Source of the DNA: Winogradskyella schleiferi
GTDB taxonomy: Bacteria; Bacteroidota; Bacteroidia; Flavobacteriales; Flavobacteriaceae
Reading direction: 5' to 3'
Length of the DNA stretch: 64,000 nt
Assembly (NCBI RefSeq): GCF_013394655.1
Contig: NZ_CP053351.1
Span: 4,318,001 to 4,382,000, forward strand
Below the pieces are notes generated by a model, which ran no database searches, was not told where the DNA came from, and was given only the letters and a program-made list of their open reading frames with translations. Of this stretch, positions 7,780 to 52,542 are shown one piece after another. Numbering within the stretch: the first letter of the stretch is position 1; each line of letters begins with the position of its first letter. The translations under genes and the position numbers were made by a program.

Positions 7780-9783
7780 TTAAACTTCAGAAGCTTCAGT
7801 CACTAAAATCTCATTTTTATCTTCCTTCGCTTTAACTATAAATTCATCGATAGCATCATTGCGTTGCAAGCCATTTTTAAGCAACACTTTTAACGCAATT
7901 AAAACAGCGATACGTGTGCCTGCTTTTTTTACTGCAGTGCCAAATAAGGGCTCTAAATCGTCGTAACTGACATTTTTTGCAAGCTTTTGTATTTCTGCTT
8001 TGGTTTTTATTTGTTTTTCTTCAGAATAGTTGGTGTATTTCTTACCTAATTGTTGAATCACACTAATAGCAGATCGCTTTTGTTGTTGAGGCTTGGACTT
8101 GTTCTGATTATTTTTTGGTTTAGGCTTTTGTTTTGCCCAACTATCTCTTAATCCCACGGTTTTGTTGAACACCAATTGTTCTGGTGTGGAATCATCATCA
8201 ACATTAAAATAGCCTAAGCGTTGAAATTGGAACCGCTCTCCTACTTTGGCATCTGCCAAACTTGGTTCTACATAACCCGTTTTGATGGTTAAGGATTTGG
8301 GATTTAGATATTCCATAAAATCCTTGTCCTTGTCCGTATCTGGCGACTCGTGCATAAATAAACGGTCATATTCCCTAATTTCGGCGGTAATGGCATGTTC
8401 TATCGACACCCAGTGCAACGTTCCTTTTACTTTTTTAGAGGTGTCTTCATCATAGGTGCAATGGATTTCAGTAATGTTTCCATTAGCATCTTTTTCAACA
8501 CTATTGGCTTTGATGATGTAGGCGTTTTTTAAACGGACTTCGCCTTCCAGTTGTAACCTAAAAAACTTAGCACTAGCTTCTTCCTTAAAATCTTCTTTTT
8601 CAATATAAATTTCCCTTGCAAATGGCACTTTTCTATAGCCCGCAGATTCGTCTTCCTGGTTATTTTCAGCTTCTAACCATTCAACTTTGTCTTCAGGATA
8701 ATTGGTAATGACAACTTTCACTGGATCTAAAACGGCCATCACACGATTGGCTGTTTTATTCAAATCCTCACGAATGCAGAATTCTAAAAGTGATACATCA
8801 ATCACATTTTCACGTTTAGCTACACCAACTTTTTCAATAAATTTTCTGATTGAATTTGGTGTGTAACCACGACGACGCAAACCAGAGATGGTTGGCATAC
8901 GTGGATCATCCCAACCTGAAACGATACCTTCTTCCACCAAGCGCAATAACTTACGCTTGCTCATTATGGTATAACTGAGGTTTAAACGTGCAAATTCCCT
9001 TTGTTTTGGTGGTAATGGTAGTCTGTCACTACTGTATTCGTAAACATTATCTCTAAACCAATCGTAAAGTTTTCTGTGTGGCTTAAATTCCAGAGAACAT
9101 AAGGAATGTGAAATTTGTTCCAGATAATCACTTTCCCCATGGGTCCAATCGTACATTGGATAAATACACCAATCGTCGCCAGTTCTGTGGTGATGTGCAA
9201 ACATAATACGATACATAATAGGATCTCGCATTAGCATGTTTGGATCTTCCATGTCTATTTTAGCACGAAGGACATGTGTACCAGCGGGAAATTCTCCAGC
9301 TTTCATACGTTGGAATAAATCTAGATTTTCTTCAACACTTCGATTTCTATATGGACTATTTGTACCTACTTGTGTTGGTGTCCCTTTTTGCTCTGCCATA
9401 GCTTCCGAAGATTGGGAATCTACATAAGCTTTACCATCTTTTATCATCATAATAGCCCAATCGTACAGCTTCTGAAAATAATCGGACGAGTACAATTCAT
9501 TTTCCCATTGATAACCTAACCAAGCAATATCTTTTTTAATGGCATCGACATATTCTTGTTCTTCTTTAGCAGGATTGGTATCATCGAATCTTAGATTCAC
9601 TGGTGCATCGTACTTCTCTCCTAGCCCAAAACTAATACCAATGGCTTTGGTATGTCCGATGTGCAAATAGCCATTTGGTTCTGGTGGAAAACGAAAACGT
9701 AGTTTTTCTTTTGGTAAACCGTTTTCTAAATCTTCTTCTATGATGTGCTCAATAAAATTGAGTGACTTTGTTTCTTCTGACAT
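7780..9783 (-). CDS. glnS: Glutamine--tRNA ligase with C-terminal extension
   Basis: 667 residues. The class I signature PEPNGYLHIGHTKA occurs near residue 33 and the KMSKS-type loop IMSKRKL near 270. The anticodon-binding beta-barrels follow, with RLGYFNVDDDS near 540. After residue about 560 there is a basic, low-complexity linker (KPKPKNNQNKSKPQQQK), then about 100 mostly helical residues. Bacterial GlnS usually ends near 555, so the tail is extra; it may be a YqeY-like RNA-binding domain as in Deinococcus GlnS, but that is only a resemblance. Having both glnS and gltX implies direct Gln-tRNA charging. Confidence 0.95.
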   Translation of the reverse strand: MSEETKSLNFIEHIIEEDLENGLPKEKLRFRFPPEPNGYLHIGHTKAIGISFGLGEKYDAPVNLRFDDTNPAKEEQEYVDAIKKDIAWLGYQWENELYSSDYFQKLYDWAIMMIKDGKAYVDSQSSEAMAEQKGTPTQVGTNSPYRNRSVEENLDLFQRMKAGEFPAGTHVLRAKIDMEDPNMLMRDPIMYRIMFAHHHRTGDDWCIYPMYDWTHGESDYLEQISHSLCSLEFKPHRKLYDWFRDNVYEYSSDRLPLPPKQREFARLNLSYTIMSKRKLLRLVEEGIVSGWDDPRMPTISGLRRRGYTPNSIRKFIEKVGVAKRENVIDVSLLEFCIREDLNKTANRVMAVLDPVKVVITNYPEDKVEWLEAENNQEDESAGYRKVPFAREIYIEKEDFKEEASAKFFRLQLEGEVRLKNAYIIKANSVEKDANGNITEIHCTYDEDTSKKVKGTLHWVSIEHAITAEIREYDRLFMHESPDTDKDKDFMEYLNPKSLTIKTGYVEPSLADAKVGERFQFQRLGYFNVDDDSTPEQLVFNKTVGLRDSWAKQKPKPKNNQNKSKPQQQKRSAISVIQQLGKKYTNYSEEKQIKTKAEIQKLAKNVSYDDLEPLFGTAVKKAGTRIAVLIALKVLLKNGLQRNDAIDEFIVKAKEDKNEILVTEASEV

Positions 9784-49577: not shown

Positions 49578-49979
49578 ATGAAAATATCCCAAACAGCAAT
49601 TATTACTAAAATACACTTGATTATTTCTGTATTGATAGTAATTCCTGTTTCTTTAGTTTATGGTTTCAATCCAAGTTCTGAATTTGATATTGATTTAAAT
49701 ACCGTTGACGAGCATAATTTCTTCAAAGCTATAATGGGTTTGTATTTAGGTTTTTCCATCTTATGGATTTTAGGAATTTTTAAAGCCAATTTTTTAAAGA
49801 TGGCTTTAATTTCCAATATCATTTTTATGTTAGGTTTGGGTTTAGGAAGAGGGTTGAGTTGGATTATTGATGGCACACCAACTTTTGGTTATCAATTTGG
49901 AGTATTTGCAGAATTGTTTTTAGGGGTTTATGGAATTTGGGCGTTAAGATTAAATCATCATGCTACCACAAATTCCTAA
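49578..49979 (+). CDS. DUF4345 family membrane protein
   Basis: 133 residues with four predicted helices. Conserved elements HNFFKAIMGLYLGFSILWI and GLGLGRGLSWIIDGTP fit DUF4345, of unknown function. Its 3' end overlaps the convergent mini membrane-protein gene by 30 bases. Confidence 0.83.
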   Translation: MKISQTAIITKIHLIISVLIVIPVSLVYGFNPSSEFDIDLNTVDEHNFFKAIMGLYLGFSILWILGIFKANFLKMALISNIIFMLGLGLGRGLSWIIDGTPTFGYQFGVFAELFLGVYGIWALRLNHHATTNS

Positions 49980-50150
49980 GCTAATTATCACATAAACAGC
50001 CGCCAGAATAAACAAAATTTTTGCTGCTTTTTTACGTTTCTTTAGAACCGCGAATCCAATAATCGTCATTAAAATAGCTGGGCCAAACATTATGGCAATG
50101 ATTAAAATAATTAAGCCATCTAAATTCATATTTCCTTCTAAAAGTATCAT
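49950..50150 (-). CDS. Mini membrane protein 2 of the radical SAM operon
   Basis: 66 residues from the ATG at 50150, chosen because this start aligns with its paralogue at 50161-50364; alternatives at 50159 and 50192 are possible. Two predicted helices, a short basic loop (KKRKKAAKILF) between them, and a C-terminus VYVIISLGICGSMMI that mirrors ALISAGICGGTML in the paralogue. Last gene of the operon starting at 52500. Confidence 0.65.
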   Translation of the reverse strand: MILLEGNMNLDGLIILIIAIMFGPAILMTIIGFAVLKKRKKAAKILFILAAVYVIISLGICGSMMI

Positions 50151-50160
50151 AAATTTCATT

Positions 50161-50364
50161 TTAAAGCATTGTACCGCCACAAATACCCGCACTGATTAAG
50201 GCGTAAACTGTTGCGGCAATCAAAATCTTTTTACCTTTAATTTCATTTTTAGAATAAACAACAAACCCATATATAAATAGTAATATAGGCATAATAATCA
50301 TTAGAAAGACTATTATAAAAATACCAAATTCCCAACCACTTCCTTGATTAAATAAAGTGATCAT
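50161..50364 (-). CDS. Mini membrane protein 1 of the radical SAM operon
   Basis: 67 residues: two predicted helices separated by YSKNEIKGKK. Its ATG overlaps the TGA of the radical SAM gene (ATGA, 50361-50364), so translation is coupled. It is paralogous to the next gene in the same operon (shared pattern KKIL-x-AAxVYxxISxGICGxxM). No family is recognised. Confidence 0.7.
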   Translation of the reverse strand: MITLFNQGSGWEFGIFIIVFLMIIMPILLFIYGFVVYSKNEIKGKKILIAATVYALISAGICGGTML

Positions 50365-51755
50365 ACGATTTCGTTTCTAAGTTCTACCAATCGCGCTTTT
50401 TTGTCATCACGATAAAACAAGTTCATCGTTTCAAAAGGTATAATTTTATTATCCTTATCTACGATATGCACACAAGATTTTTTAATAGCTCTAACATCAA
50501 AATTATAGGCATCAATGAACTGCATAATGATGACCCTAAACAAATTATCATAACCCAAACTTGGCGCATCAATATTAGGCAGACAGCACATAATAGATTT
50601 CAAATTTTCTTCGGCAACTTCAACTGAATTTCCTGTGCTGAACAATTCAATCATTTTTTCTTGAATTTGATTATCCTGTTCGTATATAATGGTGTTTTTG
50701 CTATTGTCGAGTAAATCGTTTGGATTTATATATCGCGTTAATGGAAAAACCTCCGCTCCTAATTTTAAAGCATAACCCATAACTAATGCATCAGGATTGC
50801 AAGGTACAGGCAATAAATCGTCTGGATTAAAAATATCGGTTTGTTCCATGATTTTACGTCGTACTTCGGTCAACGTCATGCGATCTGTTTCAGGATTAAA
50901 ATTATCTAAACGTCCTACAATTTGAGTGGGTTGTAAGGTTACTCCTCTTACGCATTTTTGTTTTAGGGCATATTCTATAATCTCTCCAATTTCATTATCA
51001 TTCAAACCTTTTTGAAGCGTTACCACCAATGTGGTTGACAGGTTTAATGTGTTTAAATTTTCTATAGCTTGTTTTCTTATATCATTTAAATCAGCGCCAC
51101 GAAGTTCCCGTAGAACGCTATTTTTAAAAGAATCAAACTGAAGGTAAATTTCAAAATCTGGGGCATAGGTTTTTAAACGCTTTGTGAATTCAAAATCCTT
51201 TGCGATTTTAATACCATTAGTATTCAACATTAAATGTCTAATAGGTAAGGATTTTGCATAGTCCATAATCTCCCAAAACTGAGGATGGATTGTGGGTTCG
51301 CCACCTGAAATCTGCACCACATCTGGCTCTTTTTCATTTTTCACAATAGTGTCCAGCATGGCCTTAACTTCCGCCAAAGTTCTATGTCTACCGTAGGTTG
51401 GAGACGAACCAGCATAACAGGTAGGGCAGGTTAAATTGCAGCGATCGGTCACTTCGATAACGGTTAAGCAGCTGTGTTGCTCATGATCTGGACACAACCC
51501 ACAATCATAAGGACAGCCATAATGCGTTTTTGTATTGAAGGTGTAAGGTGTTTCACTAGGTTTGTTATAGTTTCTTATGTTTTTGTAATATTCAATATCA
51601 TCCGCAATAAGCACTTTGGAATTGCCATGTTCGTTGCAACGTTTTAGCATGTAAACGTTATCGTTTTCAAATACGATTTTCGCATCAACACGCCTTAAGC
51701 ACTCAGGACATAAACTCAAGGTAAAATCGTAATAGGTATAGTTTCTAACTGGCAT
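50361..51755 (-). CDS. Radical SAM enzyme of the MJ0619/Tes type
   Basis: 464 residues. N-terminal cysteine-rich region LCPECLRRVDAKIV (residues 15-29) and GCPYDCGLCPDHEQHSC (80-96) precede the radical SAM CNLTCPTC (104-111) that holds the 4Fe-4S cluster, and GGEP (about 148-151). The C-terminal half has PVPCNPDALVMGY and CCLPNID cysteines. This order matches the archaeal MJ0619 family, whose Tes member couples lipid tails to form tetraethers. Overlaps the Lgt-like gene by 11 bases and the next gene by 4. Function in this bacterium is inferred, not shown; pterin methyltransferase-like activity is an alternative. Confidence 0.85.
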   Translation of the reverse strand: MPVRNYTYYDFTLSLCPECLRRVDAKIVFENDNVYMLKRCNEHGNSKVLIADDIEYYKNIRNYNKPSETPYTFNTKTHYGCPYDCGLCPDHEQHSCLTVIEVTDRCNLTCPTCYAGSSPTYGRHRTLAEVKAMLDTIVKNEKEPDVVQISGGEPTIHPQFWEIMDYAKSLPIRHLMLNTNGIKIAKDFEFTKRLKTYAPDFEIYLQFDSFKNSVLRELRGADLNDIRKQAIENLNTLNLSTTLVVTLQKGLNDNEIGEIIEYALKQKCVRGVTLQPTQIVGRLDNFNPETDRMTLTEVRRKIMEQTDIFNPDDLLPVPCNPDALVMGYALKLGAEVFPLTRYINPNDLLDNSKNTIIYEQDNQIQEKMIELFSTGNSVEVAEENLKSIMCCLPNIDAPSLGYDNLFRVIIMQFIDAYNFDVRAIKKSCVHIVDKDNKIIPFETMNLFYRDDKKARLVELRNEIV

Positions 51756-52500
51756 ATTTTAACTTCTGAAAGATGAATTTATAATAGTATATCCAACAAA
51801 TTACACATAAAAGTTGAATGGTGCTCAACCCAAAGACAAAAAACACATTTGGTTTTAAAAACTCCATAAAAAACCGAAAACCGAAATAAAACAACATAAA
51901 TAGTTTGAAAAGGTCTCCATTTTTTAAGGCTGAATACTTACGAATCCATTTCAAACAAAAGAATAAAACAAATAAAAAAATCAGTTCGTAAAGCGATGTC
52001 GGATGACGAATCAAACCATCGCCCAAGTCCATTCCAAAAATTGATGTTGTTGCTTTTCCATAGGTAAATTCGTTTATTCCAGATAAGAAACAACCAATTC
52101 TACCGATAATAATACCAACGATAATAGGAAACACAAACAAATCGCCAGAAGACTGTTTTTCTCCAATAATTTTCTTTGCGGATTCGACACCAAGCAAACC
52201 GCCGAATAATCCTCCCATTATAGTTTTGGTGTTGAGCAATTGTAGCACGCCTTGTTGTGAAAATTCAATAAGGGGATTTTCTAAAAGACCAACTAATCGT
52301 GAACCAATTAAAGCGCCTAATGCAGCACCAAGAATAATGGATAATCGGTTATTTGAGGTAATTATATCATTGCCTTTTCTCCTCAGAACCACGTAATACC
52401 TAAAGGCAATGAAAAATGCCAAATATTCTAGAATAAGATGAATATTCAGGTGGTAACCAAAAACTGTAGGTTCAAAAGGAATTTGCAAATTAACTTTCAT
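51745..52500 (-). CDS. Divergent Lgt-like (prolipoprotein diacylglyceryl transferase fold) membrane protein
   Basis: 251 residues from the ATG at 52500; an earlier in-frame ATG at 52527 would add nine residues. About seven membrane helices. Lgt signatures present: GRIGCFLSG near 141, RHPTSLYE near 169, and a late FRFFMEF near 214. At the loop that in E. coli Lgt reads HGG, the sequence is LFGGLLG, so His103 is replaced by Phe; the Asn of GRIGNF is a Cys. Both are known to be important in Lgt, so a canonical activity is doubtful. Cotranscribed with the radical SAM gene. Confidence 0.8.
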   Translation of the reverse strand: MKVNLQIPFEPTVFGYHLNIHLILEYLAFFIAFRYYVVLRRKGNDIITSNNRLSIILGAALGALIGSRLVGLLENPLIEFSQQGVLQLLNTKTIMGGLFGGLLGVESAKKIIGEKQSSGDLFVFPIIVGIIIGRIGCFLSGINEFTYGKATTSIFGMDLGDGLIRHPTSLYELIFLFVLFFCLKWIRKYSALKNGDLFKLFMLFYFGFRFFMEFLKPNVFFVFGLSTIQLLCVICWIYYYKFIFQKLKYAS

Positions 52501-52542
52501 TTTAGTAAGCATTGAATATACATACATTACTTAAAAATATAT

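Follow-up and report, generated by a model that had tools for sequence, protein, structure and literature searches.

Tes (also GDGT-MAS, MJ0619), the archaeal tetraether lipid synthase, is a radical S-adenosylmethionine (SAM) enzyme that joins the tails of free lipids. Bacterial homologues of Tes are already known, and membrane-spanning lipids have been proposed as their products (PMC9433317, PMC8941075, PMC11868695). The bacterial membrane-spanning lipid synthase Mss is described as coupling acyl tails, and its authors report models with a Tes-like catalytic architecture (PMC13274423). We analyzed a 64,000-nucleotide stretch of the Winogradskyella schleiferi genome (contig NZ_CP053351.1, forward-strand positions 4,318,001 to 4,382,000; hereafter, the window) in which a gene for a Tes-type radical SAM enzyme lies between a gene for a membrane enzyme resembling the prolipoprotein diacylglyceryl transferase Lgt and two genes for small membrane proteins. 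Our literature search found no description of a cassette that combines an Lgt-like gene, a Tes-type gene, and a gene for a small protein. Because the genes are strictly coupled, the small proteins carry a lipobox-like cysteine, and the two enzymes have lipid-type folds, we read the cassette as a dedicated protein-lipidation unit in which the cysteine of the small protein is lipidated and the lipid undergoes a radical modification. We give this reading a probability of roughly 0.45. Four other explanations are possible, and in decreasing order of probability they are synthesis of a free lipid, peptide maturation, a thiol role for the cysteine, and a second general Lgt.

The four genes were confirmed on the minus strand of the window in the order Lgt-like, radical SAM, small protein 1, small protein 2. 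They overlap or abut, as the initial annotation had stated. The end of the Lgt-like gene (51745) and the start of the radical SAM gene (51755) produce an 11-nucleotide overlap, and the sequence ATGA at 50361-50364 is shared by the radical SAM stop codon and the start codon of small protein 1. The end of small protein 1 (50161) is separated from small protein 2 by one or ten nucleotides, depending on whether the latter starts at 50159 or 50150. The Lgt-like gene was also correctly recognized at that stage, but its start had been placed at 52500. We prefer the ATG at 52488 because the resulting 247 amino acids is the length of 81 of the 120 Lgt-like homologues among the matches listed. The two small proteins are 43% identical to each other.

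We examined the distribution of the cassette in 149 genomes of Flavobacteriaceae, with each genus represented once. Twenty of them contain a full-length radical SAM gene (E below 1e-250), and the Lgt-like gene (E<=1e-15) occurs in those same 20. The Lgt-like gene is upstream of the radical SAM gene in all 20 loci, with an extra 247-aa gene between them in one locus (L007/G044). Judged by position, small proteins follow the radical SAM gene downstream in every one of these loci (one in 11 loci, two in 8, and four in 1). The gene linkage is beyond chance. The number of small proteins varies from one to four, however, and the "four-gene" operon of the initial annotation is thus the version of this genome. 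A similarity search with small protein 2 found relatives in 21 family genomes, which comprise 19 of the 20 cassette genomes plus G072 and G003. In the twentieth cassette genome, G113, the small protein has diverged but occupies the expected position. G003, whose genome is 80% complete, has the small-protein match and neither partner enzyme. In G072 we found radical SAM fragments with stops, a small-protein match with an in-frame stop (C7:758594-759047), and no Lgt-like match in the genome; this locus is a decaying cassette. A genome of the same genus (G368, locus L101) aligns to window positions 53561-52543 and 49947-48499, and 23 unaligned bases replace the block in between. Because 12 of the 20 family loci, including that of the window, lie no more than 1.5 kb from one and the same Dus gene, G368 looks to have lost the cassette as a whole block. 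The cassette is kept or lost as one functional unit.

The same association is seen across a broader set of 395 genomes from the phylum. The radical SAM gene (E<=1e-40) was found in 33 genomes, the Lgt-like gene (E<=1e-25) in 32, and both in 31. In addition to these 31, G242 has a weaker Lgt-like match (3e-14) adjacent to its radical SAM gene. G180 and G414 retain both enzymes though on separate contigs. Ten more genomes that lack the radical SAM gene gave weak Lgt matches (1e-12 to 2e-16), which we take for other Lgt proteins. An orphan Lgt-like gene in G165 lies at L082:1423-2268 (47% identical).

A scan of genome contigs yielded at least 569 confirmed relatives, the best 80 of which were examined. 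The radical SAM open reading frame (ORF) is intact in 78 of these; L111 and L139 were left out because it is not. Among these 78 loci, 71 have an Lgt-like gene in the examined flank, and strict rules identify a small multi-helix ORF next to the radical SAM gene in 65. Short or cut contigs account for some of the loci with a missing partner. The record titles of the best 80 relatives include Bacteroidota, Cyanobacteria, Clostridium, Ktedonobacteria, Alphaproteobacteria, and others, many of them metagenome bins that are possibly misbinned. The nearest named radical SAM proteins are from Psychroserpens, Lacinutrix, Winogradskyella, and other Flavobacteriaceae. Distances among radical SAM enzymes and among Lgt-like proteins are correlated across 109 loci (r 0.91, with 0.20 as the best of 999 permutations), to which common descent contributes. 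Two loci have unusual features. The radical SAM gene in a Clostridium lacusfryxellense record (L109:4947-6314) contains an in-frame TAA, reflecting a pseudogene or a sequencing error. In a Ktedonobacterales bin (L128:4510-5828), three consecutive small membrane ORFs separate the Lgt-like gene from the radical SAM gene, and one of them has an N-terminus that by eye resembles a zinc ribbon.

Table 1. Cassette features in the window, numbered from the first nucleotide of the stretch
Feature	Position	Strand	Remarks
Lgt-like membrane enzyme	51745..52488	-	247 aa from ATG at 52488; ORF open to 52527
Tes-type radical SAM enzyme	50361..51755	-	464 aa
Small membrane protein 1	50161..50364	-	67 aa, two hydrophobic helices, Cys62 close to C-terminus
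Small membrane protein 2	49950..50159	-	69 aa, two hydrophobic helices, Cys64 close to C-terminus
Conserved lipobox-like Cys codon, small protein 1	50179..50181	-	sequence and conservation
Conserved lipobox-like Cys codon, small protein 2	49968..49970	-	sequence and conservation
Block absent from same-genus genome G368	49948..52542		L101 alignment to window

A convergent DUF4345 gene (49578-49979) adjoins the cassette, and its 3' end overlaps that of small protein 2 by 30 bases (window 49950-49979). The C-terminus of the DUF4345 protein is different in the cassette-free sister genome.

The radical SAM enzyme of the cassette shares the overall fold of Tes, in agreement with the Tes/MJ0619 type named in the initial annotation. 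Residues were counted in 48 sequences after removal of duplicate loci, with G212 kept apart. The rubredoxin-type site of Tes (C9, C12, C33, H36) is kept, with C16, C19, and C40 present in 48/48 sequences and H43 in 47/48. The N-terminal cluster of Tes, formed by C73, C77, C80, and a histidine that is probably H83, corresponds to C81, C85, C88, and H91 (each 47/48). The CX3CX2C radical SAM motif is likewise retained as C106, C110, and C113 in all 48 sequences, and the labile Met439 ligand of Tes is matched by M411 (Met in 44, Thr in 3, and Lys in 1). The cassette enzymes differ from Tes in having two new invariant cysteines, Cys319 and Cys96, and a CC pair that is common at 390/391.

The Tes fold and the retention of most of the named ligands would also suit an enzyme that makes a free membrane lipid with tail-coupled or altered acyl chains. 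The Lgt-like and small proteins would then bind, orient, or pass the lipid, and the cysteine would be structural. Such a product would agree with the joining of free-lipid tails by Tes and with the membrane-spanning lipids proposed for bacterial homologues in the papers cited above. However, this explanation accounts neither for the constant lipobox-like cysteine of the small proteins nor for the tightly coupled Lgt-like partner. The phylum sample also includes a Tes-like radical SAM enzyme, in G212, that keeps the residues matching Tyr459 and Cys470 of Tes but not Met439. G212 has no Lgt-like match at E<=1e-12, and no such small protein is among the neighboring ORFs seen, as if an enzyme of the free-lipid type needed neither; this is one genome. 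We consider a free-lipid product unlikely. The structure matches ranked behind Tes include peptide maturases such as SuiB and SkfB, which fit a different role. The radical SAM enzyme could mature the small protein in the manner of a ribosomally synthesized and post-translationally modified peptide, with the Lgt-like protein handling or lipidating the product. The variable copy number of the small proteins is consistent with this idea, as one to four copies would be precursors, but we judge it quite improbable.

The Lgt-like protein shares the fold of Escherichia coli Lgt (5azb), and both donor-binding arginines of Lgt, R143 and R239, are kept in all 45 sequences compared. The family also has an invariant cysteine of its own in a GRxGC motif (45/45). 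Lgt Y26 is replaced by Ile or Leu, depending on the alignment, and the window protein scores 45 bits, below the curated lgt cut-off of 118.9 bits. Given its fold and arginines, the protein might be a second prolipoprotein transferase that serves ordinary lipoproteins with a donor altered by the radical SAM enzyme. However, the host genome (a single contig of 4.56 Mb) already has a canonical Lgt outside the cassette (201.5 bits), the paralogue accompanies the radical SAM gene in 20/20 family and 31/32 phylum genomes, and the cassette holds a dedicated candidate acceptor. The chance of a second general transferase is accordingly slim. Two LspA-type peptidases score above the cut-off in the host genome (G000:C1:4079735-4080301 and 641651-642088), neither of them close to the cassette.

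The small proteins have two to four hydrophobic helices and match no Pfam family above its cut-off among the families tested. ORFs were picked blind to cysteine, requiring them to be adjacent, co-directional, and 45 to 150 aa long with two or more helices, which gave 95 ORFs related to one another. A cysteine is present within the last 18 residues in 88 of these 95, compared with 6 of 20 other small ORFs from the same loci (Fisher p 8e-9), and none of 13 large membrane ORFs that end in a helix has a cysteine in that stretch. Four of the seven exceptions carry a lipobox-like cysteine at the end of another helix; they are one ORF of L155, two of L163, and one of L177. We then used a non-redundant profile of 105 sequences, before which 5 of the 66 rows in the by-position list (one each in L009, L019, L023, L031, and L060) were removed by hand as unrelated or wrong-frame ORFs. 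This profile takes only proteins with a cysteine in the last 18 residues, so its 105/105 is by construction and the independent figure is 88/95. Of the 105 sequences, 79 have Gly and 15 have Ser at position -2 relative to the cysteine. Net charge is greater ahead of the last helix than in the tail in 95 and lower in 4, and by the positive-inside rule the cysteine is therefore predicted to be located outside. Lipoprotein signal peptides have this same geometry, but here the arrangement is mostly C-terminal, and its topology is predicted. In a bin titled Moraniibacteriota (L114:5440-5943 and 8762-9241), two small proteins have a similar extra N-terminal soluble stretch before the lipobox-like helix.

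The invariant GRxGC cysteine of the Lgt-like protein raises the prospect that the small-protein cysteine acts together with it, for example in a disulfide or as a thiol carrier, which would make the small protein a redox or metal-binding partner. However, the setting of the small-protein cysteine resembles a lipobox (94/105 have Gly or Ser at -2, and the hydrophobic helix is long and begins with basic residues), and this cysteine is the only one in 62/105 small proteins. Such a thiol role seems to us very unlikely.

Deep-branch cassettes (L102 to L106, titled Ignavibacteria, Mangrovibacterium, Clostridium, and Paceibacterota) add a gene that favors lipidation of the cysteine. Their gene order is radical SAM, a methyltransferase of the isoprenylcysteine carboxyl methyltransferase (ICMT) type, a DUF4395 protein, Lgt-like, and small protein. 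In L102 the ICMT family (PF04140) scores 49.9 bits against a cut-off of 24, and DUF4395 scores 33.4 bits. The best-known substrates of the ICMT family are S-lipidated cysteines.

If the cassette is a protein-lipidation unit, we infer the following roles and steps. The small membrane protein would be the acceptor, with a helix that runs outward from the basic cytoplasmic side and ends in the lipobox-like cysteine. The Lgt-like enzyme would transfer a diacylglyceryl or related group to this cysteine. Either before or after this transfer, the Tes-type enzyme would abstract hydrogen at the acyl-tail ends and couple or otherwise modify the tails. What results would be a very small membrane protein whose lipid anchor is unusual and perhaps tail-linked. 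The initial annotation had suggested an unusual membrane lipid or lipoprotein anchor, which is partly supported; the anchor is the part that we favor, and the free lipid is the rival discussed above.

Several observations weigh against a lipidation unit. The strictly conserved Tyr459 of Tes is replaced in the cassette enzymes (Ile in 45 and Val in 2 of 48 sequences, with a gap in 1), and most have Glu in place of Cys470. In the Lgt-like proteins, N146, which is essential in E. coli Lgt, is Cys in 45/45, H103 becomes Phe in a local alignment that is weak there, and the HGGL motif lacks its His in the seven rows on which it was judged. Because residues essential in E. coli Lgt are replaced, transferase activity is not assured; N146C and H103Y/W/F do occur in other Lgt proteins, N146C in distant ones (PMC13251419). 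The radical SAM enzyme is expected in the cytoplasm, whereas the small-protein cysteine is predicted to be outside. No fusion of a small protein with an Lgt-like protein was found. Of the seven exceptions to the terminal cysteine, three (two in L116 and one in L163) have no lipobox-like cysteine, and the background of 6/20 is not low and comes from few, uncurated ORFs. Position -1 is mixed and, unlike in the classical lipobox, often bulky (Ile 21, Thr 19, Ala 17, Val 15, Ser 8, Leu 8, and Gly 6 of 105). LspA would often reject such bulky residues, and for this reason LspA cleavage is probably not part of the pathway in many small proteins. The coupling also has gaps. G165 has the Lgt-like gene with no radical SAM match at E<=1e-40, no Lgt-like gene is in the examined flank of 7/78 intact loci, and the strict rule gave no small protein in 13/78, of which looser looks recovered one in 7, leaving 6. 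Finally, in L102 the ICMT-type gene has a second match, to phospholipid methyltransferase (PF04191, 41.4 bits), and it falls under the NCBIfam isoprenylcysteine cut-off (81.3 of 160).

A Tes relative, an Lgt relative, and cysteine-bearing microproteins in one cassette suggest an undescribed lipid-tagging of membrane proteins. A bolder version, which we regard as speculative and rather doubtful, is a second bacterial protein-lipidation pathway separate from Lgt-LspA-Lnt. In this pathway a dedicated Lgt paralogue would lipidate the helix-end, often C-terminal, cysteine of multi-span microproteins with no cleavage of a signal peptide. Coupling of the tails by a Tes-type radical SAM enzyme would then give a macrocyclic or membrane-spanning anchor welded to the protein. 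One branch of the bacterial Tes homologues now has fixed partners and a concrete candidate acceptor. If the lipidation reading is true, it would represent a new route of protein lipidation and would caution against taking every bacterial Tes homologue as a sign of membrane-spanning lipids.

The described relatives each differ from the cassette. The top-scoring named family for the window radical SAM enzyme is TrsS (NCBIfam NF045646), a radical SAM (seleno)protein that is listed as a selenoprotein family (PMC13188914). The match extends across nearly the full length at 333.7 bits, and the scores of five cassette members taken from other loci range from 314 to 382; all are short of the 490-bit cut-off. 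The ICMT-type gene belongs to the deep-branch cassettes and not to the four-gene cassette of the window. Mss was compared by its published description, and the accessible part of its description mentions no Lgt-like or small-protein partner (PMC13274423). The window enzyme scores 290.3 bits against the curated Tes cut-off of 450 bits, and its Lgt-like and small-protein partners set it apart from Tes.
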